From: Bryoerythrophyllum caledonicum
Lineage: Eukaryota > Streptophyta > Bryopsida > Pottiales > Pottiaceae
DNA: 64,000 bases
Direction of reading: 5' to 3'
NCBI GenBank assembly: GCA_963971425.1
Contig: OZ020519.1
Span: forward strand, 24,096,786 to 24,160,785
The position numbers and the translations under genes are program-made. This document shows positions 32,342 to 55,864 of the stretch, piece by piece. Below the pieces are notes generated by a model. That model had not been told where the DNA came from and made no database searches. It worked only from the letters and a program-made list of their open reading frames with translations. Every line of letters starts with the position of its first letter. Positions within the stretch are counted from its first letter, which is position 1.

Positions 32342-33763
32342 ACGTAGTGTTCGAGGATAAGGTGAAACAAACCGTGATGGAGGATGGCGTCATGCACAAA
32401 GTACGCGATCGTGAGCTTAAAATTCTTTTGAATAAAGGGCTCAAATCCTGCGACTAGTGGAGATAAGCATTAGATAGGGGAGGGTGGTTTGTAAGCACAA
32501 GGAGGCTAGATATGATTAGAAATGAGCTTCATACAAAACAATGAAGCTAGCGGTTGACAACATTTTGACAAACAAAAACGATTGCATATATGAGAAATAC
32601 TACTAAATAGTCGAAACGTTTGTATATGTTGAGTCTAGCGTATAGCCGTAGTCGGTAGGGAGCCGACAAAAACGCTCTCTTCTATCCAGAAAGAGACCTT
32701 GCAATCTAGTAACGAAGAATAGTACGTACAATGCAATCTGACAACAATTGAGTCCTATGATTAGGATTAAGCAGCAATCCATCGGCTGGCAGCCAATGAA
32801 ATAAGAATCAGTCCTCATCTCCACAATTAACTGAGATGCCACCAGCCTCTAGAGTTGCAATCGTAGCGCTCGTTGCCTCAGGCGGAATACGGTAAGAATT
32901 GGGAGGGCCTTTCTTAGTGTGCGATGGATAGCGGTGCGAGTAAAGAACAATTTTGCAGTTTTGTACCTCTAAAAGACAAGGTTCTCTTTGCCATCTCCTA
33001 GTTCAGCATTTCCTCGTGACAATCTTCTTTGATTCCTTCTTTCCTGACATGGGCATCCACCATTCGACTTTGAAATTCTCGTAGCAATCTCCTGGTGTCA
33101 GATTAACGCATTCAAGAACTCGGCCCATCCACACAGGAAGGTAATGACCGTTGTTAGGACGGCAGAGGACAAAATCACCAAGTAAAATGTCTCAATATGG
33201 ATTGAACGACAGCTTTCGACGGCTCAATTCATGGCCACAGAAAGGATATGCGTCAGGGTCATTCTCAGGGGTAATGTCCGAAATTCCAATGACGTCATCA
33301 GGTGACGCAGAGCCGCGAGCATGATTGCGAATCCAGCTTGAAGTAGGCCAAAACCCTTCCTGGAGAGACTCCCGGTTTGGTGGTAGGGGACCAGAAATAA
33401 GTTGATGGATATACTCCCGGTACAAAATGTAGGGGGCCATATCCGCTGTATATCTCTTATCTCGGGACATGCCAGTCTTCCAGAACTCAATATATTTGGC
33501 AATTCCGTTCTTGATGAAGGATTGCTTCTCGCTGACTCCTATGGCCCGAGCAACCTCCTTCTCTAGGTTTCTTTTGTTCTGGTTAACTTGGACGTCTCCC
33601 TAGAGAGGTTTAAATGGGACTGGCTTCGGATCTCCAACAGGTAGGCGTGGATTTCCGTGCTCATCCGCAGTCCACATCTTAACAGGCTTACATGAAGGAG
33701 TCCAAGGAGAATTAGTCGCATAAATTGAATGAGAACATGAACTTAAAGCAAAAACGTTTAGGT

Positions 33764-33785
33764 CCATCGGCCGGCCGCCGACGGA
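33764..33785. repeat. dispersed hairpin in DUF7869 intron-like segment
   Basis: CCATCGGC-CGGCC-GCCGACGG: 8-bp stem with one mismatch and a 5-nt loop. Confidence 0.75.
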
Positions 33786-34726
33786 GAAGAAGGAAGACGA
33801 CGAAGGTGGAAGACGACGAAGGTGGAGAAAGCCCAAGAGAGATGGGAATATGAGTATTTCCACCTTAAATGGCTTACCTGCAGGAAGCCAGGATGAATCA
33901 GTTGCACACTTCTTATATCTCATGACCAGCCATCCAGCGTCATTTCCTTCCTCCTCCACGTAAAACTTGAACAGGTGTATCTCTCCCAGTCCCACAATCT
34001 TATTGCTGCCGTTATGATGATATCCAGCAATAAAACTCTTAAAATCCGCAATTTCTTGGACAAGTTCCGGAATGAACGCGACAGTCTTCTGCGAGTCCAT
34101 GAAGACTTTCATGAGGTCAGCCAAACAATAAGTATTCTTTGGTTTGATGAGTTTCGAAAGGTAACTAAAATGGGCGTCAATATCTTCATGAGTGTGGCCA
34201 ACAATCAAGAATCCCACAGTAACCTCCTTGAAAAAATTTCTAGCTGTAAGAAGCGAGCAAAACGCCATGAGGAACCGATTTTTGTTATCCTTAGCGGAGT
34301 TATCAAGCTGGAGAAACAACTTCCGAGGAAGAGGGACTTGCAACCTACCAAGAGGAGCTCCTTTAGATTCAGGAATTGAGGACATACATCTGGACTTCCT
34401 ATGAAATAGAGCATCAAAGAAAAGATTCAAGGGTGGACATGTGAATAGCTCCTTCGACTCTCGCACGGGGCGCCTCTCTAATGCTCTTAGAAAAAGCCAC
34501 AATGAAGAGATGGTAAAATTTGAGTCCCCCGGCCATAACGACGTCGAGTAATGAACGTAGGCACCGTTGCCGTGTCCATGAGTAAGCATGCCGGTACATG
34601 AAATCGGAAATCTAGCCGAGCCCGGCGGTGGCCTTGGTAATTCCCTACATTTTAGAAATGGCCGTCTTGGAGGTATCCATCTTGTCATGAATTATGCAAA
34701 GGAACTGAGACGGGTACTGAATAGAC

Positions 34727-34737
34727 TGAGCCGACCA
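34727..34737. repeat. target-site duplication, left copy (E2)
   Basis: TGAGCCGACCA on the plus strand, repeated exactly at 51,375-51,385. It belongs to the DUF7869 coding sequence (Trp-Ser-Ala-Gln). Confidence 0.88.
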
Positions 34738-34935
34738 TGGTTGTCAGGACGCTCGATGTCCCTGACGTGCGGACGTCCGGACGGAGGACGTCCTCGGGCC
34801 TATCACGACGTCCGTTGACATAACGAGTTTTGTCAGTTTACCCGGGGGTAAATAGCCGTCCACAGCCCCGGCCGACCGCCCATTCCGTCCGCTAGGGCCG
34901 ACCGCACGGTCGTCCGATGTTTTCTGCGGCCGATC
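34738..34935. repeat. E2 left subterminal GC-rich palindromes
   Basis: Several GGACGTCC / CGGACGTCCGG palindromes, then TTTACCCGGGGGTAAA and degenerate GGCCGTCC motifs up to the gap. Confidence 0.75.
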
Positions 34936-35135
34936 NNNNNNNNNNNNNNNNNNNNNNNNNNNNNNNNNNNNNNNNNNNNNNNNNNNNNNNNNNNNNNNNN
35001 NNNNNNNNNNNNNNNNNNNNNNNNNNNNNNNNNNNNNNNNNNNNNNNNNNNNNNNNNNNNNNNNNNNNNNNNNNNNNNNNNNNNNNNNNNNNNNNNNNNN
35101 NNNNNNNNNNNNNNNNNNNNNNNNNNNNNNNNNNN
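34936..35135. other. assembly gap (200 N)
   Basis: Exactly 200 N, so probably a gap of unknown size. It removes most of the H-domain gene that starts at 35,426 and lies next to GC-rich palindromes, a likely cause of assembly failure. Confidence 0.97.
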
Positions 35136-35426
35136 AGCAAAGTAAGTCGTATGACTTATGTGGCAATCTCTTGGCCAAAGTTTATCGATGTGGTACATTT
35201 TCACGTATTTCTTGCATGTCTTGGATACCCAGTAATCCTCCATTTCAGCCTCCCAAGCTTCCTCCGCCTGAATGTCTTCATTGTCCAAAATCTCCCACCG
35301 TAGATCATAAGTAACACCTTTCTGTTTGAACCGTTTGTTGGACTCTCCCGTTCCAATTTCACTCACATCTTCCACCACAATCCCCTTCTCCGTCGCCATG
35401 ACAACGTTTGCTTTTAAAAAAAACAA
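35136..35426 (-). CDS. H-domain protein H3 (partial, runs into gap)
   Basis: The N-terminal 97 residues are visible from ATG 35,426 (a better start may be the Met at about 35,399, MATEKGIVVEDVSE). The domain opening YWVSKTCKKYVKMYHIDKLWP matches H4 (LWTCTMCKRYVKMKHLMKLWP) and, less closely, H1 and H2 (CANYIEWCHIDKAFPE). The C-terminal part is hidden by the N gap. A GC palindrome zone begins 190 bp upstream, as in the other members. Function unknown. Confidence 0.6.
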
Positions 35427-35609
35427 GCGCGGACACTCCGGTATTAATTCGTGAATGAATGGTTTGGGAAATTAAGAAACAGTTAATCCGGTCACAATAA
35501 AAGGACCCCCGTCTCCTCACCTAGTAAGAACAGCAAGTACAAAAAACTGGAACTGCAGCACATCCAACTCGGCTTGAGAGGAGAGGAAGTGAGAAAAAAG
35601 TAGTGGTCG

Positions 35610-35815
35610 TCCGCATGTATATGCGGACGGCCGCCTAACCTAACCGGGCGGCCGTCCGAACCGGCGGACGGCCAATCGGTCGGGCCCACCGGGCCGGCGG
35701 TCGGCCAATGGGCCGGCCGTCCGAACCGGCCGTCGGCCGAGCCTGGCCAACTGCGCCGGCAGGCCGTCCGCCATACAGCCGACCGCCGGGCTTGCGTCCG
35801 CCAGCCTCCTGGGAC
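35610..35815. repeat. GGCCGTCCG palindromic zone upstream of H3
   Basis: Degenerate repeats of GGACGGCC / GGCCGTCCG and GGTCGGCC, about 80% GC by eye. Same character as 39,758-40,058 and 50,931-51,240. Confidence 0.8.
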
Positions 35816-35816
35816 T

Positions 35817-35905
35817 GTTTTTTTTTTCCTTTTTTTTTTCCCTTTTTTTTCCTTTTTTTTCCTTTTTTTTTCCTTTTTTTTCCTTTTTTCTACCATTTTT
35901 TCTCC
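35817..35905. repeat. polypyrimidine (T8CC)n tract
   Basis: Runs of 8-10 T separated by CC or CCC. The Lys/Arg-rich ORF on the other strand is an artefact of this. Confidence 0.95.
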
Positions 35906-36078
35906 TTTATTTTTTCCTTCGTTAATAGTAATGGAAGGTGTTAATGTCGAAGTACCGTGATAGTTTTCTACCAAAAATACTTCAAAAGTATTGGATTATA
36001 GTGAAATGAACAAAGAAGGAAAAAAAAACTTCTATTTTTAGTTCTGACCATGGGATTTCAATTAAGACTTAGTAAGTA

Positions 36079-37247
36079 CAGTCAAACCTCGTTAAATGTT
36101 ACCTCGATAAGTGTTAAAACTCTATATGTGTTATGGAGATTTCCGCTCCCTTAAAATTAAGACTACTAAGTGTTATGTGTTAAGTGTTACGCAATGTCGC
36201 GCGCCCGACTTTGTTGATTTTACCTCGATAAGTGATAAGTTTCCAAAAAAAGGCTTTTTGTGAGAGCCATTGCTTGGGGGGAGATAATTTTGAGGTAAAG
36301 TAATAGTTTTTAGTTGCAAAGTGACACTAGATGTCCATTCTAGAAACAAACTGATAGGTACATGTATTTCCAAGTTCAATAGTTAATAGATCATATATTT
36401 TTAAGCTCATAAAGTAAAAGACAAGTGTACTTTTAAGTTATAAACTGAAAAATAAAAGGCAACTAGGCAAGGCGGCAAAGACTATAAGAAGGGACTGAAG
36501 GCTATAGAATTATTATTTGTTTTGTGAACTCATTCATAGACTATATGTTGTTAGAGTTTTCATTTGTATTGCAAATTCATCAATAGAAGATATATTGTTA
36601 ACGTAAATTTCCTACAGTTTGCAATGGCAAAAGGTCATGAGTTCACGTTAGAGCAAAAACAAAAGATTATTGAATATTGTGAGACTGTGTTAGCTAGTGG
36701 TGGAAAGATTACCAATAGAGCATTAATTGCGTGGGCCAATGCACACTTTCAAGTAAACGCGTCTGAGATGAATATTCGAAGAATAGTAAAGCGAAAAAAA
36801 CAAGGTAGTGAACACGAAGATAATGATCCTGATGAAGCTAATCTTCACGATATAGTAGAAGAAGTTGTAGGCTTTAAAGATGTAGGTAGTGTTCTTCAAA
36901 CTGTGAAGTAGTTTTTGGAGCAAAGACCTAATGACACCATGTTATCTATGAGGAATGTTGAAGCACTAGAAAAGGAAGTAGAATCTTGGCGTGTAGCAGA
37001 AACTCCCCAAAGTACTATTGATTCATTCTTTCAACGGACTTAGATGAATAATGAATCAATATTTTGTAATTTCATCCATTTTTTCTATAACTGTTATGTA
37101 TTTATCTTTTTAATTCTTCGAAGTGTTATTTTTTTATAAGTGTTACAAATCATCGGCATCACCCTCTATAAGTGTTATGTGTTACTAGTGCCTAAGTGTT
37201 AACTAAAAGTATGCTCCCAATCCCTAACACTTATCGAGGTTTGACTG
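36079..37247 (+). mobile_element. Tigger/pogo-like element, internal deletion derivative (1,169 bp)
   Basis: Terminal inverted repeats CAGTCAAACCTCG..AAGTGTTA and TAACACTTATCGAGGTTTGACTG are flanked by TA on both sides. Inside is an N-terminal CENP-B-type helix-turn-helix ORF and a C-terminal transposase tail, but no DDE domain. Confidence 0.92.
36624..37044 (+). pseudogene. Tigger-like transposase remnant, HTH plus C-terminal tail
   Basis: From ATG 36,624: MAKGHEFTLEQKQKIIEYCE and NRALIAWANAHFQVN are a CENP-B/pogo-type DNA-binding helix-turn-helix. The frame stops at TAG 36,909. A second piece (NVEALEKEVESW, then TIDSFFQRT, stop near 37,042) resembles the usual C-terminus of Tigger transposases. 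The whole DDE catalytic domain is gone, so mobility would need a transposase from elsewhere. Confidence 0.8.
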
Positions 37248-37524
37248 TAATGTACTCACAAAATTTCATAGTTAACTTAGTCTCCTACATAGAAAAAAGT
37301 ATGAGAAAAAATTTAGGGGCAACAATGATCAAGTCCTCCTTCGCACCATCTAGACATTGCCTCTTCGGCAAAGGGGAAAAGAAGTTTCGATTCAACTTTG
37401 AACGTTATGATTTTACAAATGAAAAACATCCAACAATTTAAATTTGAATCAATTCTTCTAAACCGGGTTGCATATTGAATTCCATACTATACCCCATCCG
37501 CACTAATTGGGACCCCAAGAACAA

Positions 37525-37675
37525 TAATTAGGGTCCCCAAAAGGGGCCCCAACAACAGTGGCTGGGGCCCCCAGCAATAGCTTTACAGTCGCTCGGGCCC
37601 CCAGCAACAGTCGTCGGGGCCCCCAATAATAGCTGTTGGGGTCTCAACAAGAGCTGCTAGGATCTGCCCGATTAA
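37525..37675. repeat. GGGGCCCC-containing minisatellite
   Basis: Five to six units of about 27 bp with core GGGGCCCCCAGCAA(C/T)AG. Confidence 0.88.
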
Positions 37676-38269
37676 TTTGAGCCCCCAAATGTAGCACTTT
37701 TTGGAGTGGATGGAGGCCCAAATCATGTCCAAAGTACACAAGAATTGGCTCACTTATTATTTGGCTATGTTTGAAGAGGATCTTACGGTTACTTTTTGAA
37801 TATTTTTCTCCCATTGAGCTCTACATGGAATTTATTTTTGAGGAATTTTTTACTGTATTTCAGCGTTTCGACCCCCCAAGGATGTTTGGGGTTTAATGTT
37901 AAATTGTATTTGGATTGAAAATATGTTTGAAAAAGTGAAACTAGATTCGAAATCGGAGATGGAAAAGAGAATCCTTAGGTTTAGGGTTAAGGGTTTAGTA
38001 TATATAAAGGGGCTAGATTTTAAGTTATAAGTAAGAAATATGCTACATTACACCAATTATTTACCATGAGAATGCCACGTGGAAATTGTTGAAATTTTTG
38101 GATTGAAACATTGATAATTTTGTAATACACTTGCTTTAAAAAATGGGTTCATTTCAACAATTTCTTACGTCTCTAAATTGGTGAATATGGAATTAACATC
38201 AAGCTTCACAGAACAATATAAAATTATGAACTTTTGGATTGGATCAGGGTTTAGGGAAAGAAAAGTCAA
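37676..38269. other. noncoding
   Basis: AT-rich. No supported gene. Confidence 0.4.
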
Positions 38270-39430
38270 AGTCTAGAGTACCAGTCAACAATGGAAGAAA
38301 ATGAACATTTTTTTTTACTTTACACACTATAATCTATCAATCCATGCGGTGGATTGCAACCATAAGAGCATGGTGTGTTCATATAGAAGTCTACTTTAGG
38401 ATCTTACGGTTTAAATTCTAAAGATCACTTGGAAAATGTGATTGCTATGCCTCTTTTTCGATGTGACTGTTTTGGACTAATTTTTTAGCTAAATTGGCCA
38501 TGTTCCTTTAGAGTTTCAAACAAGATAAAATATTTAGACCTTGCATATTACTTAAATATGATTCGAAGTGTTGTCAAAGTCACAGTGTCTCATGAATATG
38601 GATCAACGCAGGGAAGAGAATAAGTTGTTGTTTGGATAGTAAACCCCATGATTTAACTATCCATGCGGTCGATAGGAACCAAATATATGAACACGCCATA
38701 CTATATTAGTTGCAAACTATCGCACGAATCGATAGATTATAGTGTCTATGTAATGTTTGAAGTACAGAAGTTCCAAATCTTTTACCATTGTCAAGTTAAA
38801 AGTTAGGCATCATGTTCATATCCAATACACCAATTTCTAGAGGTAAAAGAGGGGTGTAGCATCTTCGAGAAAATTCAACAACAAGTGGTGGTTCAAGAAT
38901 GGCCAATTCACGTTACAATCACTTGTGAACTAAATATCTTTTAGAATGCTTATCCATATTCCAATTAGTCAATTAAAGGGTGTACATCACATCTTTTAGG
39001 AGAACAAAAGAAGAAGTGAAAAAAAAATAAAAAATTGTAAATTTTATTGAAGAAAAGAAGAAGTTTTGTTGCACATTGCACAAAAAATGGTGAAATTATT
39101 TTACTTCAAATAAAATGCGACTTTACAATGAAGACCATCATTTTTTTGGTAAACCTTTAATGAAAAAAATATTTCAGATGAGTATGAAAAACCTCAATGA
39201 GTGAATGTCAATAGACAATTCTATAAAAGGATTTTAGATGCCCGTGCTCCCCTTTTTTGACTATGGGTGGTACTAAATTTGAAACCACAAATCTACAAAA
39301 AAACTTAATTAATACATTCAAATAGCTCTTCCCAGGGACAAAGTAACATAAATTTTTTGAAAGTTGTTTCTTCATATTCGCAATATAGAAACCTGCCCAA
39401 AATTAAAAACTCGCCGCACAGGAGATTTAG
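38270..39430. mobile_element. two TTAA-MITE copies in inverted orientation
   Basis: 38,280-38,525 is a plus-strand right part (CACACTATAATCTATCAATC, CGGTGGATTGCAACC, to TTCCTTTAGAG). 38,650-39,410 is a minus-strand copy running from the same ATAATCTATCGATTCG zone to TTTGGGCAGG near the left end. Both are diverged. No ORF. Confidence 0.7.
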
Positions 39431-39757
39431 TCATGTAGAGGCCAAAAATCCTTCCATACAAAGTTATGCCTATGCCGTGGGCATGTTATGTTAGATATTT
39501 TAAGTGGAACCATTATTAAGAAACTATATAAATCTTTGCTTCCACGCGCACAATGGAATATCCTCGTGAATGCGCACAAAATCTTCCGGACATACTTCCG
39601 ACCATTAATGCACGTGACTGGATCTCCAGATCTGGATTGCACGTGCAAAGTCAACCGTCCCAGAAAACGAAGTGAAGGACAAGGGAAGGGAGATGAGAGG
39701 GGAGAGAGTTGGGAGGGGAGGGAGCCTAAGTGGGACCAAAGAGGAGAGGCCGACCGA

Positions 39758-40058
39758 TCGGGGTCAGCCGCGGACGGACTCTGCGGACGGATCCGATCGG
39801 ACGGCCGAGACCGATCTGACGGCCGTGGCCGTCTGAGACCGATCTGACGGTCGTGGCCGTCCGATTCGACGACCGCGGCTGCGGACGGCCACGACCGTCC
39901 GATCAGTCGGCCACGATCTATCGGACAGCCACGACCGTTCGTGGCGGCATCGTGGCCGTCCGATCGGGCGATACGCTCGAGGCCGTCCGCCATCGGACGG
40001 CTCAGACGATTCGCAGACCGTCCGCCGAGGCCGTCCGCCACTTGCGGTCGGCATAAAA
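39758..40058. repeat. GGCCGTCCGATC palindromic array upstream of H4
   Basis: About 15 imperfect units of (C)GGACGGCC(A/G) and GGCCGTCCGATCGG in both orientations. The minus-strand ORFs across it are repeat artefacts. Confidence 0.88.
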
Positions 40059-40171
40059 GACGGACGGCTGACCTTTCTCCCACACTCTAGTGGGCGAGCT
40101 GGTCGCTTTGGCATATTTTGCCTAATCGCTTGCGCCACCTCGAGTGGCTCATTATTTCTTAATTCATTTCA

Positions 40172-40387
40172 CCCCTAAACTACCAGAGTCTCCTTCGGGG
40201 AGATTCCTTGATTTTTGGGCAGGTTCCTGAAACTTGAAAACAAATCAATTTTCTCTTAAATTTTTATTCTAGATTGCCTTTGATAAGAGCTTCGTGGACA
40301 AGTTTTTTATTTTATTTTTTTAATTTGTGGTTTGAAAGTTAGTATCACCTATAGTTTTTGAGGGAAATTGTCAAGGAACTTTAGGGG
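40172..40387. mobile_element. short TTAA-type MITE (216 bp) just before H4
   Basis: Ends CCCCTAAACTACC and GGAACTTTAGGGG, flanked by TTCA (one change from TTAA) and TTAA. The end lies 45 bp before the H4 ATG, so the MITE probably forms part of the leader or promoter. Without it the palindrome array would lie about 160 bp from the ATG, as in H1-H3. Confidence 0.8.
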
Positions 40388-40432
40388 TTAATTCCCATTC
40401 ATTCATTTAATAGTTTGTTCTAGTTAGGAAAG

Positions 40433-42833
40433 ATGCCAAGGTCCAACCGGCCCGTTGCTCCAAATGGGAAAGCCCCCGAGATGGATTGGGACGCAACGGA
40501 CGAGTACGGGTGGCAAGATGAGGAAGAGAGGTTGTGGACTTGCACCATGTGCAAGAGGTACGTGAAGATGAAGCACCTCATGAAGTTGTGGCCCAACGCA
40601 CAAGCGAGGATATCGGGGCCGCGGCGCGAAGGTCAAGCGAGCAATTGTCTGAGCGACCATTTCCGCCATGGATATCATGAGGTCACTGCTGCGGTGGGTG
40701 TGCGCAACTCGAGGCCGGAGATCATGTTGTATTCGAACATGGCGATAGTTTGGGCGGAAATCGTCCTACACAACGATGTGGATTGGCGCACCGTGGCGGG
40801 CCGCAATGTCAGCCTGATGGATCGAACTGCCCATTTTATACCAACCACCTGGAATCAACCGAGTGATTGTTGGCCACGTTGGACAAACCGAAGATCCGGG
40901 GACGATTCCGATGCCCACCAACAGCAGCAGACACCTCCAGAAGAGTACGGGGGACATAACTACAAGGACTACAAGGACTACAAGGACTACAAGGACTACA
41001 ACGACTACAAGGACTACAACGACCACAAGGACTACAAGGACCACAACGACTACAACGACTACAACGACTACAACGACTACAACGACTACAACGACTACAA
41101 CGACTACAACGACTACAACGACTACAACGACTACAACGACTACAACGACTACAACGACTACAACGACTACAACGACTACAACGACTACAACGACTACAAC
41201 GACTACAACGACTACAACGACTACAACGACTACAACGACTACAACGACTACAACGACTACAACGACTACAACGACTACAACGACTACAACGACTACAACG
41301 ACTACAACGACTACAACGACTACAACGACTACAACGACTACAACGACTACAACGACTACAACGACTACAACGACTACAACGACTACAACGACTACAACGA
41401 CTACAACGACTACAACGACTACAACGACTACAACGACTACAACGACTACAACGACTACAACGACTACAACGACTACAACGACTACAACGACTACAACGAC
41501 TACAACGACTACAACGACTACAACGACTACAACGACTACAACGACTACAACGACTACAACGACTACAACGACTACAACGACTACAACGACTACAACGACT
41601 ACAACGACTACAACGACTACAACGACTACAACGACTACAACGACTACAACGACTACAACGACTACAACGACTACAACGACTACAACGACTACAACGACTA
41701 CAACGACTACAACGACTACAACGACTACAACGACTACAACGACTACAACGACTACAACGACTACAACGACTACAACGACTACAACGACTACAACGACTAC
41801 AACGACTACAACGACTACAACGACTACAACGACTACAACGACTACAACGACTACAACGACTACAACGACTACAACGACTACAACGACTACAACGACTACA
41901 ACGACTACAACGACTACAACGACTACAACGACTACAACGACTACAACGACTACAACGACTACAACGACTACAACGACTACAACGACTACAACGACTACAA
42001 CGACTACAACGACTACAACGACTACAACGACTACAACGACTACAACGACTACAACGACTACAACGACTACAACGACTACAACGACTACAACGACTACAAC
42101 GACTACAACGACTACAACGACTACAACGACTACAACGACTACAACGACTACAACGACTACAACGACTACAACGACTACAACGACTACAACGACTACAACG
42201 ACTACAACGACTACAACGACTACAACAACTACAACGACTACAACAACTACAACGACTACAACAACTACAACGACTACAACAACTACAACGACTACAACAA
42301 CTACAACGACTACAACAACTACAACGACTACAACCGTGGCAATGATATAGGTTCCGCGCCTGTAACATTTGGTTGGGGGAGTGGCAGCCATTACTGTGAA
42401 GGCGGCCAATGTGGTACATGGACCAACACCCCTCAGAGCTATACGCCAACGCATCCAATGGGTACGTACGAGTCTCATCGTAATTCCCCCGGAAAAGAGG
42501 AAGAAAACGACACTCCAAATCCAGGACCCGTCTATTACGACGGATATGGCCATGCTTACGATGGATATGGCCGGAGCTTAGATGGGAGAGACAACACACC
42601 TCCATCAACGTTTCTACCTCGTTAGGACGAAGATGCCGAGTTTGAAAGACAAATGCATGAAGCCACAATACAAAGCCAGAATGAGTACATCCGCAGGCTC
42701 GAAGTTGAATCTCGCTACATGAACAGGCAATACAATAACTTCTATGATGTTTATTCAAGCGGGCCGTACTCAAGTGGCGCTGAGCCAAGTCAAAGACGTG
42801 ATACTGACTCAGATTCCGATTAATCATACATGG
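40433..42833 (+). pseudogene. H-domain protein H4 with a giant Asn-Asp-Tyr repeat (TAG near C-terminus)
   Basis: Residues about 20-145 form a diverged H-domain: LWTCTMCKRYVKMKHLMKLWP, SDHFRHGYHEV, RPEIMLYSNM, AEIVLHNDVDWRTV. After a Gln patch, codons from about residue 179 to 634 encode K-D-Y, then N-D-Y, then alternating N-N-Y/N-D-Y units. A Gly/Ser/Tyr-rich tail follows ([13 protein letters not shown]). The frame stops at TAG 42,623-42,625 but continues open for 69 codons with a coil-like segment ([13 protein letters not shown]) to TAA at 42,831, so CAG to TAG is likely. Tyr/Asn-rich repeats of this type favour phase separation or aggregation (inference). The TAG may cause only a short C-terminal truncation. 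Confidence 0.72.
40967..42335 (+). repeat. 9-bp coding satellite, about 150 units
   Basis: Unit TACAACGAC. The middle (about 41,047-42,223) is almost perfectly uniform. Variants are confined to the edges: AAG for AAC at the 5' edge, and a six-fold AACAACTAC/AACGACTAC alternation at the 3' edge. As the unit is a multiple of three, several frames stay open (poly-Thr, poly-Val and RCS peptides); only the NDY frame joins the H-domain. Confidence 0.98.
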
Positions 42834-43159
42834 TCTTTGTGTAATGTAATCCATGTGGATAATGTCTTCATGCGAGAACAATGTTGACTACTTTGTAAAT
42901 TTAGAAGGTCATTCTTTAAGATCTTCAAATTGATGTTTATTAAATATTTCTACGTTGCGACCATGTCAATGTGGATGATGAATGTACAATGCATGCTACG
43001 TGTTTCCAAATGAATTTTATTGATAATTTTTTAGTATAAGTGGATGTCTGGAATGAGAAATTTTTATACATTCCAACTTTTCACTCACTTCATAAAAGTT
43101 AAAGAGTATTTCATATCATTACATGTTAAACAGATTCTTTTTTACAACATGTACCCCTC
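42834..43159. other. noncoding 3' flank of H4
   Basis: AT-rich. No feature seen. Confidence 0.4.
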
Positions 43160-44430
43160 AAGTTCATTGAGTATTTCTCATCCAGAAGTTAAAGCAAGAA
43201 AAGAAACGCCGGTCCGCAAAGGGGCCGGCATGAATAAAGAATCTGTTTGTTCCATCACTAAGACCATGCCCACCAGACACCGTGTCGGGGAGGGCTTGGT
43301 TTCTTTTCAATTTTGCGTTGGTGTAGTAGAATGGACATGGCCTGCTGAATGGCAACGGTGTTAATAATATTGAAAGTGTGTAAAATTGTTTCGATGGAGA
43401 TTTTAAAGGTATCTCAAAAGGATATTTATAGATGGGATAAGGGTGGTGGCACGAGCATCGGCAGTGATTACAATAAGTGGGTCCATTTTCCATCCGAGGG
43501 CAACGATGTCATTAATAAGGGGTTGCTTGGTTGGTAATCATTATTTTGTTTTCAATTGTTTCCGGGGAGAATGTATCATTACAATATGTGAATTCGATGA
43601 ATTGAATGGTATATTCTTGGTTAATGTGATCGGGTGCAGGGTCATTGTATGGAAGGCCCCAAATGCAAAGTATGTCGGCTTTGAGTCTAGCGTTACAGGG
43701 ACAGCGCTAAGTTGCGCATGTACAGTACATGGGACTCGGGAGTAGCCAAGGGGGGACCGTATTTCCTTGTGGGTTGTAACTTGTTATTAAAGGTGCCGGC
43801 ATTCATGAGGATAAATCATCGTGATTTTTTGTGGGAGGTAAATAGTTTTCGAATTTCCCATACTGCTTTGTTATGTCTTGTGACAATTAAGGAGTGTATG
43901 TGATGGTTTTGGCATTTTCAGTAGAACATGGAGTGATTTGTCGGGGTCTGAGAAAGTGCATATGGGGCATGTTACATATGGGATTTTTTCTATTCCAAAT
44001 AAGAGTTGTTTTCAGGCGTTTCCCACATATCAACTATTACGGAATTTGATGACGCATGTTATTTATGAGTTCGGGATGATGGGATTTTTTGAAGAATTCG
44101 TAGAGAGTTCATAGTCTATTTTGTTGTTGCCAACCCATTATTCTATATTAGGGAAGTTTTCTTCAATTGTGTCGAGGTTGTTATAGAGATCTTGTTTCTT
44201 GAGATATTTGTTCAAGAATAAAACCGGAACCTTAACGGGGGTATCATCTTTAGGAGGCCAATATTCTTTTTGGAAGTAGTATGGGGTAGCATGTGGATGT
44301 TCGTACAAGTCTTTGGCATTTTCATGCGTTTTTTTGCGGACCTCTTTTCCAAGTTTATTTGCTTGTGCGTTTCCATTGATATTTGCTTGAGCAGAACTTT
44401 GTGAAGGATTGTTATATGTGTTCAATTTTG
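43160..44430 (-). pseudogene. LINE ORF C-terminal debris
   Basis: An ORF at 44,138-44,425 (YYFQKEYWPPKDD, KYLKKQDLYNNLD) lies upstream, on the minus strand, of broken frames containing a zinc-knuckle-like CPICTFSDPDKSLHVLL, as at the C-terminus of LINE polyproteins. Many stops. Assignment is by that motif only. Confidence 0.45.
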
Positions 44431-45004
44431 AAACATGTGGATCAACAACATTAAAATAGTTTGGTCAAGATGGCTATTGTAGAGGATAGGGTTTGTTATT
44501 TTTTTGTTTAGTACATAAAGTGCATTGATACAGTCAGTGAATATGTGTGTGGGTTTGTTGTTGTATTGTGTTGTGATGATTTGTCACGTTTTGTGTATGG
44601 CCATAAGTTCTGCTCTAAGGATATTTTAGTGTGTGGAAATTACTCTATAGAGTACACGAAATAGTATACCAAATACATTATACAATATCAATGAATACAA
44701 CAAAATCTTCCTATAAGCTTTTTTTTCTATTCATATTTGAATGCCTCTACAATTTAATGTATGCATGTTTGTATTAATGATTGCATATACTTCATTGCTT
44801 TAAATTGTTATGGTTCTAGATGTCCGAGTAAATATGTCGTAGCAATCTACCTACAGAGTTAGGCATTGAACTTCCTTAAAATGCTTTATAAACACTCACA
44901 AGAATGTGGTTTTTGGAAAACCTTCTACACAATTTATTTTTTCTACTAAATCAAAACCCTACTTAGAGAGCCGATATCCACTATTGATATAATCTAGCCA
45001 AATT
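44431..45004. other. noncoding
   Basis: AT-rich. No feature seen. Confidence 0.4.
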
Positions 45005-45650
45005 ACAATTTCATCCACTGCGGATGAAAATAGTCAGAGGATGGAAAAGCAGTCCGTGGTTGAAAAAACAGTCTCTGGACGAAAAACAATCTCCAGAAGA
45101 AAAATCGTCCGCGAATGACTAATGCTAAGTGTTAAGAATTATCACGAACAATATTAAGAAACACTTAATGTTTGTAACCCGATCCTTCTCTAGTCTTCCA
45201 ATTTTTTTTAAGTAATTTTGAAATGAATGTTTTTCTTAATATTAAATAATATAGAAAATTCATTAAAGTGGTTGTTATAATGCGTTGCAAAACAACCGCG
45301 AACCAGTACTAAATTTCTATAGATGTAAACTAGCGGTTGGCGCTTGCTTTGCAACGCATTAGTCCAACCATTGTAATGTAGTTTAATATTATAATTAGGT
45401 TCTCAAAAATTCATCTGCAGTCTAATTTTCATCCACTGCGAATGTTTTCATCCGCTGCAAACATTTAAACCGCAGTCTGATTTTCATCCGCATTTTGATT
45501 TTTCATCCGTAGATATTTTTTCATCCGCAGCCTGTTTTTAATTCGTTGCGCGGTTTTTCATCCACTGCGGAAATTTTCATCCACTGCAAGATTTTTCTTC
45601 CGCCGTATAGAATTTCATCCACAGTGGATGAAACTGTTTTTTTGGAAGAA
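45005..45650. mobile_element. fold-back element with TTTTCATCCGCAG arm repeats
   Basis: The right arm has about ten units of TTTTCATCCGCAGTC. The left arm has their complements (GACTGCGGATGAAAA type). The centre pairs AATGCGTTGCAAAACAACCG (about 45,277) with a complement near 45,335-45,365. The outer ends are themselves palindromes (TTTCATCCACTGCGGATGAAA type). No ORF. Confidence 0.75.
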
Positions 45651-45836
45651 TTAACTTAACAGCGAGTTAATAACTTCCAAAATATTCATTTTTTTGGAAT
45701 TCCGACTTCGGATTTGGGCTTATTATGTGCGTTTTCATCTAGTAGATAAGCAAAAAAATTGTTACAAAAGTTTTGAAAATTTGACATTTTGGAGTGTATT
45801 TAAAAATAACATTTCAAGGACTAAACTTTGGATGTA

Positions 45837-47510
45837 CAGTGCCCTCTAGTAAGTAAGGTAACCCCTATGAAATTCTGCATGGGGATGTTTAGACAGTGCA
45901 CCTCCTATCTTTAATTTTCAAGGTGATCTGGAGAAGATATTGTGGATTAAGGAAGCTAACATGCTGAAGAATGTCACAATGACTCACTTGCTGAAAAAAA
46001 ATCAACTATATGAAATACATTAATAAATTTAGCGATTGACATCTGTTGCAATACATGGAGCCCTGAGAAGAAATTGTGTATTTTAATGAGCTTTGTGATT
46101 ATGAATTCATTGATTTCTTGTTGCAATGTGATGAAGTTGACTAGCTGCCTTGATTTTGAGCTTGAAATTGTTGTACATGCCTAGAAAATTTTGTTGCAAA
46201 ACTTCATTTTGGTGCTTCAGTTAGTTGTGTAGAAAGCTGCTCAGTGAGTTTGAGTTGTGCACTGATTCAACACAACACTATGGCAGGACACTTTCTTGGC
46301 ATTGGAGAGCAATGGAGTATTGTAGGAATGAGTAAGGCTGAATCGTCTTTGAGCGAGATTTCACGTCGTGTTGGAAGACCGAAGAAGACTATTTCGTTAG
46401 TTCTGAAGAGATATCGCGAGAGGGGCTCAGTACAAATTGGACAGAGGTCCGGACGGCCTCAAAAGTTGCAGGCTCGTGATCGAAGGCATCTCAAGTATGA
46501 GCTTCAGAAGAGTCGTCGTGTGCATCTTTCAGAACTTGCACATAGTTTGCCAATTCCTGTGTGCCAAACTACGGTACGGAAAGCATTGCATGAGCTTGGA
46601 CTTCGTAGTCGAATTGCAGTCAAGAAGCCTTATTTAAACCAAAGACACAAGGAGCAGAGGTTGTGCTTTGCAAAAGCTCACAAGGATTGGACAATTTGAG
46701 AGTGGAGCTCAGTTATTTGGAGTGATGAGGCATCGTTTGAAATAGGTAAGAATTCACGTCAGATCCGAGTATGGCGGAGTAGTCAGGAGAGATATGATTC
46801 ACAGTGTTTAGCACCAACATTCAAGTCTGGAAGAATGTCAATAATGGTGTGGGGTGCTTTCACTGCATTTAGCAAGTGTTATATAGTCTTGATTCCTTCT
46901 GGACAACGCACTACTGTGGACTTCGTCGATGTTGTATGTGAGAACGGATTATTGCCTTATTTCTACCACCACGCCAACCATGAGCATTTGACTTTGAAGG
47001 TGGACAATGCACCAGTGCATACTGCTAATGTGACAAAGTCTTGGATGGAAGACAATGGATTAAAGACATTGAGCTGGCCCTCAAACTCTCATGATCTCAA
47101 CCCTATCGAAAATCTTTGGATGATTTGCAAAGACCGCGTCCAAAGCATGAACCGGCCGCAGAATAAAGTTCAAATGTGGGATACAGTTAATGGAGCTTGG
47201 GAGAGTATACCAAAGAAGATGTTGAGTGATTTGGTTGCAAGCATGCCCGAACGCATGAAGGCTGTTATTGATGCCAAAGGAGGTAGCACACGTTGGTAGT
47301 AGTTGTTAGTTAGTTCAATTTACATCCCATACTTATGGTAACAATTGTATATATTCAAATTAAGATGCTTCAATATGTCCACAACTTTCTATATATGCAA
47401 AAAAATTGATCCATCATCCACTTCAGATGAAGCATTGACCATGCTTTCCCTTTCATTTCTGTGTTTCTACCAACACTTCACAGGGGTTACCTACTTACTA
47501 GAGGGCACTG
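45837..47510 (+). mobile_element. Tc1/mariner element, structurally complete (1,674 bp)
   Basis: 34-35-bp terminal inverted repeats starting CAGTGCCCTCTAGTAAGTA are flanked by the target dinucleotide TA at 45,835-45,836 and 47,511-47,512. The right repeat differs from the left by one missing A and one substitution. It contains one transposase gene with a single in-frame TGA. High repeat identity implies recent insertion into E2. Confidence 0.97.
46280..47299 (+). pseudogene. Tc1-family DD34E transposase, one in-frame TGA
   Basis: The likely start is MAGHFLGIGEQ (46,280). Two helix-turn-helix DNA-binding regions follow (LSEISRRVGRPKKTISLVLK, and HLSELAHSLPIPVCQTTVRK) with the linker GRPQK. 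The catalytic Asp is in WSDEASF, the second Asp in VDNAPVH, and the Glu in DLNPIENLW, with exactly 34 residues between the last two (DD34E). The only defect is TGA at 46,697-46,699, just before WSS; no frameshift. CGA to TGA or TGG to TGA would explain it. Confidence 0.93.
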
Positions 47511-47512
47511 TA

Positions 47513-47815
47513 GATTATGGCTCGAGAATATGTTCATCACATTTGATCTCATGCATGTTTTTTGTGTGTTAGTGTTGGTTGTGTTTTCAAATTTGTTATA
47601 TATGGCGATATTCATTTACAAGACATGTAAGGTGTCTCATTTCAAATCTCATTTCAAACAATAATATGATGATGGACACGGAAAGAATACAATTGGATGG
47701 AAGGGGACGTCGCCAAAGCGTGCATGAACCCTAAACATGCAAAGTTTGAATCAAACTTTTAACTTTTCTATGCACCTGATTCAGATGTAAATATTTAGAA
47801 GAATGTACATGACAA
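47513..47815. other. noncoding
   Basis: E2 sequence after the Tc1 insertion; no gene seen. Confidence 0.4.
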
Positions 47816-48860
47816 TGTCATGGAAAACCTCATGAGAAACGATGTTTTTCACTGTTCCCTTGAAAAAACAAGTCTTCTCTTTATTGAATTTTTTTAAAAC
47901 AGCATACCAACCCAAGTCAAACATTTTCATACATTGTCACTCATTGTCGCGTGAGGTACCAAAAGATCTTATTAATTTTCACATAAAAAGTTCAGAAGGA
48001 AAAAAAGTTTGAATTGGCAAAGTTTGAACCTCCACTACTTCCACAGTTGTTTTGAATACGCTACACTTGTCCTCTACCTCAAAAAATTGATGTCTAAGGA
48101 ACTAACATCATGCTTAAGGTAGTGGATTTAGACCTTCTGTAGTTCAAAATTTTGACACCAGGTAAAGTCAAAGTCTGCCGATCCACTAAACGCAGTGAAG
48201 TAAATGACTTATAGGCTTCACTTCACACACTATAATCTTTCAATCTGTGCAGTCAAAGTTTTTGAAATTTTGTAAACATATTTTTTAATAAGTCTTAATT
48301 GAGATCCAACTGTCAGAACTAGAAATCAAACTTTTGGTTTCATTCTATGGTCATTGCACTAGAATCCAACAACTTTGAAGTGCTTTCGGTGCAAAAGTGT
48401 CACGATATTTTTGGGGATATAGGAGACATGTTGTATGAGTAGGGAGTCAGGCCTGAGGAGGCGTTTCAAATGGGGGTAATTTCTATAAATGCTAAATTAT
48501 ATTCAAGAAACATAAAATGGTTGAGGTTATGTATGATTTAATGCCATGGGCACTATGATCTGTTCGAACTCAAACTTGTAAAATTTGATATACGTCTTCT
48601 CTACATAAAACCTAGAGATCATCATATTTTACACATTTTGCTTTTTCAACAACATGTAGTGAACACTGAAAACCTTCCTAAACCTAGGTTTGGATTATCA
48701 ATTGAAATCAAATTTAGTTTACAAAAAAATAAAAATAAAACGTGGAATGGCAATTTTTAAACTCCAGTATTCGCGCACTTGATTTGAATATGCTACAATT
48801 ACTTTCTCCCTCTAAAAATTGGTGTGTTGGGAAAGATCATCATAAGGTTGGATTTGGATA
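47816..48860 (+). mobile_element. TTAA-type MITE fragments
   Basis: 47,820-48,450 matches 4,015-4,657 block by block (CAAGTCAAACATTTTCA, GAGGTACCAAAA, GGAACTAACATCATGC, CACTATAATCTTTCAATC, CGGTGCAAAA). 48,600-48,860 repeats the internal part (ACATAAAACCTAGAGATC, CGTGGAATGGCAATTTT). Ends are eroded. Confidence 0.7.
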
Positions 48861-49145
48861 CTTTGACGTAATTTTTTTAAAAATTCTGAAATACAAGAAT
48901 TTGAAATAGAACACATTGATAAGTTAAAAAATCGGAACTATGCCACAAGCAAAACCATAAAAAATACAAAAATGTCGGTCTTTGCACGGCTATATGAAAA
49001 AAGGTTTTTTTACTTCTTGTGCCCAAATTTCAAAGGCATGCAGTACATATTAATCTAAGACTATTGCTACAGTCACTATAAAATGTGCATGCTATCTAGT
49101 ATAGTCTAATAATGCTGAAAGGAATAAAGTAAAATCTATGTATTA
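48861..49145. other. noncoding
   Basis: No feature seen. Confidence 0.4.
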
Positions 49146-50630
49146 CTAATACGTTGACCGAAAATGCTCATGAGGCATGGGCCAGTTGTATGTGCCACTG
49201 AAGCGTGTAATGATATGAAACAACCCTCCAGCGTTTTTTCGATTTTCGTTGCAGACTCTCTCCATGTACATATGAAATGTATCCGCAAATTCTTGATTTG
49301 AGAATACTATGGAACTCCGAGATTCGCATTGCAGATTCTCGTAGTCTATGGACATTGTCCGCCCGTTGATTCGTTGCGCTATTCGGGCCGTAGCAAACTC
49401 CTCCGTAGCCATCGATAACTTCAGAATCATTTGCACATCCGCATCTGGTTTGTGCAAGTACGCAACCCGCGGATCCACCCACCATCGCTTTCGCAGAGTC
49501 TCGGCCATGTCTTCACGCTTTGTGAACGTATAAAGAGACTGCATTGGTTCATTAACCTTCGTGGTCATGCCCCAATTGCATACTCCAATATACACTCGCG
49601 ATTCATCCGGAGGGAAGTGGAGGAGGATATTGTCCGGAGACAAGTCATTGTCGAGATTGTTGCTCTTGTGGACCTCGTTCATGATGCGCAACAATGCCCA
49701 CGCAAGCTCGGTCCGTTTTTTGCGAAAACAAACCAATTGTTGAACTCGAATAATCTCATCATCGGGGAATCTCCCATAGTTCAAATGTGTAATGACATCG
49801 TCACCAAACTCCATATCCCGGTTCAACATCTCTCAAATTGTCCCGCCATTCCACCAATACGCATAGCCTTCGTACTTGTCCGGATGAATGGCCACGAAAC
49901 GGATGACACCTGGATGTGGAATCCTCACCGCCATCGACTCGTTCTGATGCTCCACTTTTGCCAAATCCGGTCATGTCTCCGATTGGTTGGACAATTTGGC
50001 GGCAAATTCCCAGAATGGTTCAATGCCCGGAGCACCCTCAATGCGGACTTTGCGAATGGTGGCGTATCAACCTCTCATGTTGGCATTGTCCATTCGTATA
50101 ACCGCGGCTCTTGGCGGAATGGCAATGAGATGGGCTTTACGCAGCAGGTCTTCTTGGTGCCCCTCTATCGAGTTCCACCATTCCACGGAGCCACGCTTGT
50201 TTCGATTTTTGGCGAATGGCTTCATCTGGGCCACGAACAAATCCGCCTTCAACAACACGTCGTTGAAAGCTTCATCCGCCTCGCGATTGAACCTCCCTAA
50301 CTTGGGCAACAAGTTCTTGGCATTTCAGAGTGAATCATGAACTCTGGCATCCAAGAACTTCAAAAACCCGTGCTTCTGGGTCTCCGTATTCTACATCAGG
50401 GCTTGAAGCGCGTCCATCATGTGCTCTCGCATGTCCGTCCGGAACTTCTCGGGGCCTTCATCTCTGTATCTGACGTACTTGCTCTCCAATGATCGAATGG
50501 AATTTCTCTCATAGAATGTGACGGTCAGTTTTATGAGGAAATTCTTGCAAGCCTCAGATGGAACGTCGTGGATTGGATGAAGCTTCACTCCGAATTCCGC
50601 AACCTTCTGCTTCTTCTTGTCCTTAGGCAT
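49146..50630 (-). pseudogene. kinase-fold protein K3 (five in-frame stops, no frameshift)
   Basis: One frame runs from ATG 50,630 (MPKDKKKQKV) to the stop at 49,146, about 490 sense codons and close to K2 in length. It is cut by TAG 50,391 and TGA at 50,325, 50,067, 49,971 and 49,833, all in the same frame. Domain order as in K2: TIRKV glycine-loop trace, EFAAK (Lys), YAYWWNGGT, catalytic loop NNLDNDLSPDN with the HxD His changed to Asp, CNWG for DFG, then a diverged C-lobe. The catalytic His and DFG Asp are gone, so even a repaired protein would look like a pseudokinase. It starts 744 bp inside the E2 right end. Confidence 0.82.
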
Positions 50631-50654
50631 CTTCTTAAACCCGCCGCCGTTCGA

Positions 50655-50792
50655 AGTTTTTTAAAAAAACTTTTTAGAACAAGTTTTAAAAAAAACTATA
50701 AGAAAAAAACTAGCTTGGAACAAGTTCTTAAAAAAACTTTTAGGAAAAACTAATTAGAACAAGTTTTTAAAAAAACTTTAAAAAAAACCGCA
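50655..50792. repeat. AGAACAAGTTTTTAAAAAAAC tandem repeat
   Basis: Four to five imperfect units of 25-40 bp, self-complementary (AAGTTTTT/AAAAACTT), between the K3 start and the GC array. Confidence 0.85.
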
Positions 50793-50930
50793 AAACCTCC
50801 CCTCCAATGTGAATCACTTTTTCCCTCCCAAAGATGAGGAGCCAATGGATGGAAACTGCCAGCCAAAGCGACTCCGCATCCATTCAAAAATATATTTTGA
50901 GAGGGGAAAGAAAAAGTGAGGGAGAGAGGA

Positions 50931-51240
50931 TGGCGGACGGCCTTTTATAGGGTGGCGGACGGCCATGAGGCCGACCGCCACCACGGCCGTCTGATTGGCC
51001 GTCCGATCGGGCGGCCGTCCGCCCGATCGGACGACCCTAAAGCCGTCAGCATGATCGGAGGGCCGTCGTGCGCCCGCGCGATCAAATCGCGGCCGTACAA
51101 TCGCTCCATCGGCCGTCCGATCAGGCGGACGACCGAGGTGCTGTCCGATTGCTCCGACGGCAGCGACCGATCAGACGACCTGTCGCATTTTGACGAGTGC
51201 GATCTCACCGCGTGGCACTTCGTCGAATCTGACGGTCCAG
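50931..51240. repeat. GGCCGTCCGATCGG palindromic array upstream of K3
   Basis: Dense GGCCGTCCG/CGGACGGCC units in both orientations, starting 300 bp upstream of K3. Same character as 39,758-40,058. Confidence 0.85.
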
Positions 51241-51374
51241 AAACTTACCATGGCGTCCCGTTAATGCATTTTACCCCCCCCCGGACGCTGCGTCCGACGT
51301 GACATCAGGACGTCCTCGTCTTAGGACGTCCTAGGACGCTCTGAAACCCCCAAGGGCGTCGGATTGGTAACCCT
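51241..51374. repeat. E2 right terminal region
   Basis: Contains TTTTACCCCCCCCC, several GGACGTCC/AGGACGTCCTAGGACG palindromes, and the end GCGTCGGATTGGTAACCCT. Confidence 0.8.
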
Positions 51375-51385
51375 TGAGCCGACCA
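51375..51385. repeat. target-site duplication, right copy (E2)
   Basis: TGAGCCGACCA, identical to 34,727-34,737. Confidence 0.88.
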
Positions 51386-52440
51386 GCTGGAATAAATATT
51401 TCTACATGCCCTTTGGTAGTTTAGGTGCATGTTTCTATCATCCGTGAGTCCTTGCCACTCGTCTCACCCGCGATGATATTTTGCGATAAACTCGACCAGA
51501 AAGCCGTACTCCGTGCACCTGGAGAAGTTGCTGCCCACAGACTTTACTTCTACATTCCTGAAGAACCTCTTCTTCATGTTACTCATTGCGGATTGTAAAA
51601 TCGGCTTGGCATTGCATTCGACGTTTACCTGGATGAGACATTTTTAAGGATCATTTAGTAATATAGAAAGACAATGGTGTCAAAGGTATGCCCAGTAGGC
51701 AATGAATGAGTTCCGTTGGCGGGTCGCCGACGGAGCTTGCTGAAGCGACAAGAAGACAGACCATGCTAAATACAAAGATAGGCAAAAGTAATAACAATAC
51801 TTACAAAGTTGGCCATGTCAGTAAGTGATTCCAATTCATGGCCACGGGAAGGACCTTCAACGCAGCGACCCTCTTGTTTTGATGACACGGAACTCATTTG
51901 GCATCTAGTCCGCAGTGTCATTGATAATGCATGATATGGTACCACGAGCATGAACGGTGTGAGGCCTGGGCCTTATAATGCCTGCGTTACCTTGGCTGCC
52001 ATTCACGCGACCGATCTTTGAATCATATTTATAGTTGTAATATGCGGACTTCAACACGCCGTGAATGTTGTACCATGCAACTTCACAAACATCGACACCC
52101 ATGAGGGTGATGTATAATTTTTGGAATCCAGGAATTCGGTGAAGCTGGTCCGCAACAGCATAGGCCATTTCGCGTCGTTGTTCGAAGCTTGACGCGTAGT
52201 ACTTCCTTCAAATCTTGCGGCTGTCTTCCCAACAAAGTAATTGGCAGCATCGTTTCTTACAACACCTTTCCGCGCTAACAAGGCGGCACTCATTTGGGTT
52301 CTGAAGGCGACGGAACTTGGAGACCGACAAATCGTCCTTCGGCAAAAGCTTCCGACGGACACCCCTGTAAGGATCCTTAGGCACACCCTCAAGCCCGTCA
52401 TCCTTGCATGCAGCTTGACTATGCGTTGAGGGGTAGAAGT
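51375..52440 (-). pseudogene. DUF7869-type transposon gene, 5' half
   Basis: The minus strand encodes the conserved region found upstream of DUF7869 domains: RCCKKRCCQLL, AYAVADQLHRIPGFQKLYIT, LMGVDVCEVAWYNIHGVLKS, GNAGIIRPRPHTVHA, then (after an intron with a hairpin at 51,712-51,732) VNVECNAKP and NYQRACRNIYSSW. In-frame stops at 52,208 (TGA), 51,905 (TAG) and about 51,470 (TGA) are C-to-T type; one frameshift lies near 51,860. It ends exactly at the E2 target duplication, and the other half resumes at 34,737. Confidence 0.85.
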
Positions 52441-53034
52441 CAGCTAGAGTTACTCACTTTTGGGCAAAAAAAATATACCCAAAAGTATATTTTTTTGGAC
52501 AAGAAAACTTGATTTTGCCCAATTTAATGGAAAAAAAAGGTTTTTCTTCATAAAAAAGTATGTTTTAAGATGGATCTATGCATGATGTATCTGATTGGAT
52601 AAGAAATCAAAGCAAAATCAATATTGAGTCCTATTTTAGGAGCCTTGAAGAAATATCTTGTTTTTTAGCAATAAAAGTGAAAATAAATTTTCGATCTAGA
52701 ATTTTCAATTATAATATATGAACATATTATGGCATGAATGTGTCCCAAAACTTTTGAAGTATTTAACTTCCTAGAACTCTCAAAATAAGTGTATTTGGCA
52801 AATGTCATATACTTGTGACAGATATATACTGATGAAAGATATACCCATATTGGCCAAACCGTAAGTCAGAACTGAACTTTTTTGGGGTTTCTAGACTTTA
52901 AATCAAGGCAATTATCACATTCCATCAATAGAATTCCAAGATCAATTCCACATTCGCACTATGCTGCAAAAGAAGGTTCGTGACTCTTTCCAAAACCATT
53001 TGTGATACTATAAATATACCACCTTATTGGACTT
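52441..53034. other. noncoding, AT-rich
   Basis: Possible intron or 5' region of the DUF7869 gene. No ORF seen. Confidence 0.4.
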
Positions 53035-55535: not shown

Positions 55536-55845
55536 GATGTTGAGTTCACTGTAGTTAAATTTACTGTTGTATTTGAATTTTCGTCCAGAAGTGATCACAA
55601 GAGGATGTAGTCAGGTTTCAGAAAGAATATGTCATAGGGTCTTCAAAATGTTATTTTGTGATACACATTTGACTATGTGCATCGGCGGTCTACTGACGAA
55701 TTTTGAGTTTAGTCTAATAAAAGCCTTTGTGCCATGTGGTATTAGGTCTATTGCACAGAGGTGATAAGCTGAGTGTGTACTGAGGTTTCCCATGTCATAG
55801 TGTCTCCAAACATCCTTTTATGTGGTATACACTAGTCACTGTGGT

Positions 55846-55864
55846 CGTCGGCGGCCCGCCGATG
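55846..55864. repeat. dispersed hairpin, one G-T pair
   Basis: CGTCGGC-GGCCC-GCCGATG. Confidence 0.85.

Follow-up and report, generated by a model that had tools for sequence, protein, structure and literature searches.

A probable giant hAT transposon nested in a DUF7869-encoding repeat of Bryoerythrophyllum caledonicum, and its candidate accessory genes

Transposons of the hAT superfamily (Ac/Ds, Tam3, Hermes, Tol2) are marked by an 8-bp target duplication, by ends of the (T/C)AGNGNNG type (a pattern taken from a plant hAT survey, PMC6027215, cited like the other papers here from excerpts), by DUF659 and dimerisation domains, and by dense subterminal repeats, which are expected of hAT ends (PMC10368747). 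They are usually pictured as small, with a single transposase gene: Hermes is about 3 kb long (PMC10368747), and a typical size of about 5 kb, ranging from 110 bp to 7144 bp, has been given for the superfamily (PMC6710886). The enlarged members found in the literature are fungal and carry captured genes, such as the ca. 9.5-kb hAT with a captured histone H3 in Pseudocercospora fijiensis and relatives (PMC6710886), or ToxhAT, which is 14 kb long and carries ToxA (PMC9594970). In the excerpted text of the plant survey, no hAT of any kind was detected in the moss Physcomitrella (PMC6027215). Here we analyse a 64,000-nucleotide stretch ("the window") of the genome of Bryoerythrophyllum caledonicum (Bryopsida, Pottiaceae; assembly GCA_963971425.1, contig OZ020519.1, C7:24096786-24160785). 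It holds E2, very probably a giant hAT element, about 23 kb when complete, that would have inserted by a cut-and-paste mechanism into one copy of an abundant repeat encoding DUF7869, duplicating 8 bp of target. The same window contains E1, a diverged, hAT-linked family with the same two types of extra gene.

Insertion site and ends of E2

The initial annotation had described a DUF7869 gene split by a 16.6-kb element (34,738-51,374) with an 11-bp target duplication and a Mutator-like mechanism. The 11-mer TGAGCCGACCA is indeed present at both breakpoints (34727-34737 and 51375-51385), its only two places in the window, with none on the opposite strand; after removal of one copy, the joined flanks read in frame as NIYSSW-SAQ-SIQYPSQFLCIIHDKMD, again as had been claimed. 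Whole-genome searches were carried out on 437 Mb in 894 contigs; the genome counts and linkage figures given below rest on the best-scored places of larger candidate sets, and chance figures are calculated for evenly spread places. When the joined flanks were used as a 575-nt query, all 40 scored places matched across the junction (90-91%; 279 candidates). Moreover, in seven fetched paralogues the equivalent of window 34737 abuts that of 51375, with a single copy of the site. Four of these (L004, L006, L007 and L008) were among eight loci fetched for the 11-mer out of 84 listed matches, and three (L054, L055 and L056), in which the 11-mer at the empty site differs by one base, came from the joined-flank search. 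L005, also fetched for the 11-mer, has it but aligns to a different part of the DUF7869 element (window 55692-58627), and L001-L003 gave no match to the window longer than 150 bp. The comparison of the joined flanks with DUF7869 sequences of the same genome had been proposed in the initial annotation. To judge from the paralogues, contiguous across the site, the insertion is real and a single event that split one DUF7869 sequence, as predicted there. The element and its immediate surroundings are as follows.

34736-51375, + strand: E2, a probable hAT-superfamily element (repeated ends, 8-bp duplication, 10 copies compared)
34728-34735: left target-duplication copy, GAGCCGAC, 8 bp, native in the empty-site paralogues
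51376-51383: right target-duplication copy, GAGCCGAC, 8 bp
34736-34935: left subterminal region, GGACG/CGTCC at 50 per kb
34936-35135: 200-N assembly gap, 200 bp inside the left end
50925-51375: right subterminal region, GGACG/CGTCC at 33 per kb (counted on 50925-51374)

Both ends, CATGGTTGTC on the left (family sequence CAGGGTTGTC) and GTAACCCTT on the right (family sequence GTAACCCTG), are repeated in the genome. The left 198 bp of E2 were found at 39 other scored places (467 candidates; 88-94%), 37 of which begin at query base 2-4, and the right 300 bp likewise at 39 other scored places (528 candidates; 87-94%), 38 of which reach the last base. We fetched 20 kb from each of ten E2 copies, in four of which (C1_42385, C9_15882, C1_13548 and C2_28889) both ends lay inside the fetched sequence; 100-bp pieces supplied four further right ends and one left end. 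Among eight other copies, six are flanked by an exact 8-bp duplication, one (C1_50010) by a duplication matching at 7 of 8 bp and one (C2_28889) by none; in the window copy all 8 bp match. A ninth base also matches in four of the seven other copies showing the duplication. Readings of the duplication as 11 bp or 9 bp were rejected on the grounds of the terminal bases described next.

The first two bases of E2, compared in 20 left ends including that of the window, are CA in 16, TA in three and disrupted in one, and G was taken as the last base of the element because it is the right-hand base in all eight other right ends read. In the window, the CA at 34736-34737 is E2's own terminus and coincides with a native CA after the target, and the T at 51375, the last base of E2, coincides with a native T before it. 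Read from these alignments, the 11-bp repeat is an 8-bp duplication plus three chance-matching bases (CA and T). The target duplication of the initial annotation is thus present, and E2 ends repeated elsewhere also carry duplications, at 8 bp and not at the 9-11 bp anticipated; one insertion stands as well, with its limits moved to 34736-51375 and its size probably larger owing to the N gap.

As regards the (T/C)AGNGNNG pattern, the family left end CAGGGTTG fits, the family right end CAGGGTTA deviates at the last base, and the window left end CATGGTTG is one base off. The termini of the window copy, CATGG (left, also seen in L023) and CCCTT (right), are each one base off the family. Near the ends, the density of GGACG/CGTCC amounts to 50, 31.7 and 33.3 per kb, versus 1.7 in the interior and 0.7-0.9 in the flanks, the ends being about 19-29 times as dense as the interior.

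The window copy of E2 is probably dead, because both termini are one base off, its kinase frame is broken (see below) and a Tc1/mariner-type element lies inside it. Two features of its interior are:

40959-42334: 9-bp satellite array of ACTACAACG, about 153 units, expanded in the window copy
45835-47512, + strand: nested Tc1/mariner-type element (PF01498 and PF13358), TA at both ends, inverted ends of about 33 bp that are 85% complementary

The exact ACTACAACG unit occurs once in each of four other fetched copies and in none of the other six, and the Tc1/mariner-type element is missing at the equivalent place in the three fetched E2 copies that can be judged.

Transposase and cargo genes of E2 and E1

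Where the window has its gap, from the equivalent of 34,935 to that of 35,136, seven of the ten fetched copies have 3.7-10.3 kb of sequence (3.7 kb in C1_42385, 6.6-6.9 kb in four copies, 8.1 kb in C9_17445 and 10.3 kb in C7_19248); in C9_15882, C2_28889 and C15_17885 the gap-flanking junction is lacking. Since so many copies hold several kb at this place, E2 is probably longer than 16.6 kb. Spans with both ends measure 22.6-24.2 kb in three cases (C2_30800, C3_30973 and C7_19248), the others being 4.1, 6.2, 16.5 and 18.6 kb, with one of 41 kb. Originally, the window copy probably measured close to 23 kb, though it may have undergone a deletion inside the gap.

The open reading frames (ORFs) at the gap place were scanned in two copies. 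Those of C1_13548 gave the hAT transposase domains PF05699 (E 3.7e-10) and PF04937 (E 9.8e-24); those of C15_19616 gave PF04937 (E 4.9e-34), with PF05699 at E 0.0011 only, below the cut-off. C1_42385 lacks most of the transposase stretch. An exact 8-bp duplication flanks the internally deleted, 6.2-kb C9_15882, which retains the transposase region along with both ends, so that this region belongs to the E2 ends. A tblastx search for hAT similarity to the window itself gave no match. By eye, DGW and CTDNA can be recognised in both E1 and E2, and CERNWS in one copy; these may correspond to the hAT catalytic D, D and E motifs. As a candidate for the N-terminal BED zinc finger of hATs, a CxxC...H...H-like stretch was also noticed by eye, with no Pfam zinc-finger match in the scanned ORFs of that region.

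Besides the transposase region, E2 carries two cargo genes, which in the window appear as follows.

35136-35399, - strand: N-terminal piece of a RING/coiled-coil cargo gene, the remainder presumably lying in the gap (start codon assigned by eye)
49146-50480, - strand: kinase-like cargo gene, broken (5 stops in a 442-aa alignment; limits approximate)

Window positions 35136-35583 are 93.5% identical to C1_13548, whose minus strand encodes a protein with coiled-coil and N-terminal parts ahead of a RING domain (PF13639, E 1.6e-8). The kinase-like gene of E2 gave 2040 candidate places genome-wide, 95 of them scored, of which 35 are without a stop, most frames being near 526 aa. Of 39 right ends, 12 have a scored E2 kinase no farther than 5 kb away (0.08 expected), and in every case the two are on opposite strands. 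Matches in the PDB were weak, the best at E 0.0032.

The same two types of gene are found in E1, near the start of the window.

4908-7241, - strand: E1 RING/coiled-coil gene, with one stop in the window copy and a 777-aa frame in many others
7690-9279, + strand: E1 kinase-like gene, homologous to the E2 cargo

The E1 and E2 cargo proteins share 26-30% identity (RING, E 9e-19; N-terminal part, E 8e-12; kinase, E 3e-36), and another kinase-like ORF, at 183-971, shares 31% identity with the E2 kinase and 38% with that of E1. All eight RING ligands are kept between E1 and E2, and the HND....N kinase loop is kept in all three kinase-like sequences; the DFG-type motif reads CDWG in E2 and in the ORF at 183-971, and CNWG in the window E1 kinase (we presume the usual roles for these kinase motifs).

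For the window E1, the DUF659 (hAT) domain is found outside the window, 2.45 kb ahead of its start, and shares 43% identity with the E2 domain. In the genome, DUF659 is located 6.4-10.6 kb upstream, on the opposite strand, at 32 of the 82 scored E1 kinases, that of the window included (2334 candidates; 150 of 1504 candidates scored for DUF659) and within 15 kb downstream at none of the 82, with 0.42 expected. For 54 of the 82 kinases there is a scored E1 RING gene no more than 15 kb away (0.72 expected); the two genes stand on opposite strands in 53 of 55 such pairs. Of the 82 kinases, 27 are without a stop. These comparisons suggest that E1 and E2 represent a giant-hAT lineage in which accessory genes have been conserved. 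A PDB search with the E1 kinase gave weak matches (best VRK1, E 0.0019), and an IMG/VR scan with it for a viral origin of the cargo, reaching close relatives only, found none.

Some additional observations concern this part of the window. A third kinase-like gene (183-971) and, besides that of E1, another coiled-coil N-terminal part (2830-3558; 65% to the E1 part) suggest a further related element at the window start. G+C-rich 32-bp repeats at 7366-7455 and 9692-9790, on both sides of the E1 kinase gene, may be E1 subterminal repeats. Near 28.88 Mb of C2 (L015/L043), one of the two hAT-linked families is nested in the other: an E1 copy is interrupted, where it corresponds to window 8131-8135, by a deleted E2 copy of 4.1 kb.

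The interrupted DUF7869 element

The sequence into which E2 was inserted comprises the following.

33600-34691, - strand: DUF7869 part (PF25273, E 4.2e-41)
51386-52430, - strand: upstream part of the same DUF7869 sequence, contiguous with 34737 in the paralogues
about 32063 to beyond 59800, - strand: whole DUF7869 element

DUF7869 gave 3607 candidate places genome-wide (150 scored), with many frames of about 1066-1077 aa. The element has a sharp edge near window 32063, the first aligned base being query base 656-666 in 35 of 42 other match rows, and runs past 59800 in most match rows. DUF7869 is most likely a mobile-element protein and not that of a host gene, possibly an undescribed transposase or element protein; the interrupted "gene" of the initial annotation is a high-copy repeat. 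As E2 sits in a repeated, most likely mobile, element, it would disrupt no host gene, and the split gene reflects the ordinary nesting of one mobile element in another. A search for terminal inverted repeats (TIRs) of the DUF7869 element found none, a PDB search with DUF7869 returned 0 matches, and an IMG/VR scan for its viral origin, again reaching close relatives only, found none; a single-sequence fold of the ORF was uninformative (mean predicted local distance difference test score, pLDDT, 34) and was not used. Our search of open-licence PMC papers returned no mention of DUF7869, which its thousands of candidate places now flag as a likely mobile-element protein.

The DUF7869 sequence also contains a 610-bp insert (window 52431-53040), with a 4-bp junction overlap, that is absent from the fetched paralogues covering the place. 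An ORF for an NLI-interacting-factor-like phosphatase (60225-60950; PF03031, E 5.2e-5) lies just past the mapped DUF7869 element. As to the genome as a whole, the LEAFY domain (PF01698), to our knowledge a streptophyte marker, gave seven matches, one strong (best E 1.3e-27) and six weaker ones that may be pseudogenes or repeat-borne fragments.

Accessory genes, passengers and known systems

In the mechanism that we propose, the GGACG/CGTCC repeats would mediate the action of the transposase on the E2 ends, in the manner of other hATs, and, less certainly, the RING/coiled-coil and kinase-like genes would be long-standing accessory genes of the hAT lineage that might modulate the transposase or the response of the host through phosphorylation and ubiquitination. 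A streptophyte lineage of giant hATs might then have kept two working accessory genes over a deep divergence, aiding or regulating transposition, and be multi-gene by design; this last step is put forward tentatively, and we would not yet call it probable.

Several observations weigh against the hAT assignment or the accessory role. One of the eight other copies examined for it (C2_28889) lacks the target duplication. The transposase is spread over frames in C1_13548 and over two ORFs in C15_19616, with no intact transposase read, and that of the window copy is hidden by the N gap; a scored DUF659 match lies within 6 kb at 3 of 39 E2 left ends (150 of 1504 DUF659 candidates scored). E1 is considered a probable hAT element from its DUF659 linkage, and the argument for conservation of the accessory genes comes from the comparison of E1 with E2. 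The E2 kinase-like protein matches PF00069 at E 1.4e-5 (C1_13548, near the right end), below the Pfam cut-off, and Asn in place of the DFG-type Asp may leave the window E1 kinase inactive, so that kinase activity is doubtful. In addition, a codon-position count among four to eight aligned E2 copies showed no consistent third-position excess in cargo or transposase, which is what copies decaying after insertion would show and gives no support for selection.

The missing codon-position signal would also be in keeping with an ordinary hAT whose extra genes are captured or nested passengers without element function, like those of the fungal histone-H3 hAT. The nested elements and satellites, the many broken cargo frames, the window E1 kinase without its DFG-type Asp and the precedent of a captured-histone-H3 hAT amplified to hundreds of inactive copies (PMC6710886) point the same way. 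Passengers do not readily account for two gene types that recur in a second, diverged hAT-linked family with RING ligands and HND....N kept at 26-31% identity, nor for the scored kinases without a stop (35 of 95 in E2, 27 of 82 in E1) or for linkage far above chance. It is a quite possible explanation, short of being a probable one.

A Mutator-like element with a 9-11-bp duplication, as in the initial annotation, is extremely improbable: the identical 11-bp string at both breakpoints agrees with it, but the duplication is 8 bp in seven of the eight other copies (one of them at 7 of 8 bp), 16 of 20 left ends start with CA as part of the element, and hAT domains are present, with no Mutator-like (MULE) transposase among the Pfam-scanned ORFs of the window element and two copies (not every ORF). 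Nor is there a terminal pair among the 14 inverted pairs of at least 25 nt (12-base seeds, window copy), the ends sharing only the terminal motif CAGGGTT, although some MULEs are without long TIRs and a missing TIR alone is not decisive. Finally, a wrong joining of the DUF7869 halves across the N gap, which does lie 200 bp inside the left end, is hardly credible, because the halves carry the same 8-bp site and join as in the paralogues, and the two ends are those of a single family, equally oriented; the gap length alone looks wrong.

If the accessory-gene reading is true, a set of transposase, RING and kinase-like genes in high-copy elements of at least 20 kb would mean that a cut-and-paste superfamily is large and multi-gene in the plant lineage, and it would become testable whether transposons control their own movement by phosphorylation or ubiquitination. 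Our search of open-licence PMC papers returned no hAT with a kinase and RING pair and no plant-lineage hAT of the size of E2.

Among other large or gene-carrying elements, Pack-MULEs and Mutator-like elements resemble E2 as plant DNA transposons with extra gene sequence; E2 differs from them in its 8-bp duplication, its short terminal motif and its hAT transposase, and its cargo recurs in two families and does not consist of random fragments. The fungal Starships, classed by their tyrosine recombinase (PMC12134995), are likewise large cargo-bearing DNA elements, whereas E2 has hAT domains and target duplications. The enlarged En/Spm (CACTA) families of Chondrus crispus, of 16-20 kb with 4-5 ORFs (PMC6431247), are also oversized TIR transposons with extra ORFs, in another superfamily and another host; that review of giant transposons does not mention hAT in the excerpted main text. 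Closer to E2 are the fungal hATs. ToxhAT is a large gene-carrying hAT, though with ToxA as cargo. The histone-H3 hAT is enlarged, with DUF659, 8-bp duplications, an extra gene and hundreds of copies, and differs in that it carries one housekeeping gene inactivated by repeat-induced point mutation (RIP), whereas E2 and E1 carry two gene types in two diverged families. With the hAT superfamily as a whole E2 shares the duplication, the type of ends, the domains and the subterminal repeats, and is unlike its usual members in having copies of 22-24 kb with RING/coiled-coil and kinase-like genes. Large gene-carrying hATs are already known in fungi; what is unusual here is the size of the E2 family and the recurrence of the kinase-like and RING genes in two diverged hAT-linked families.

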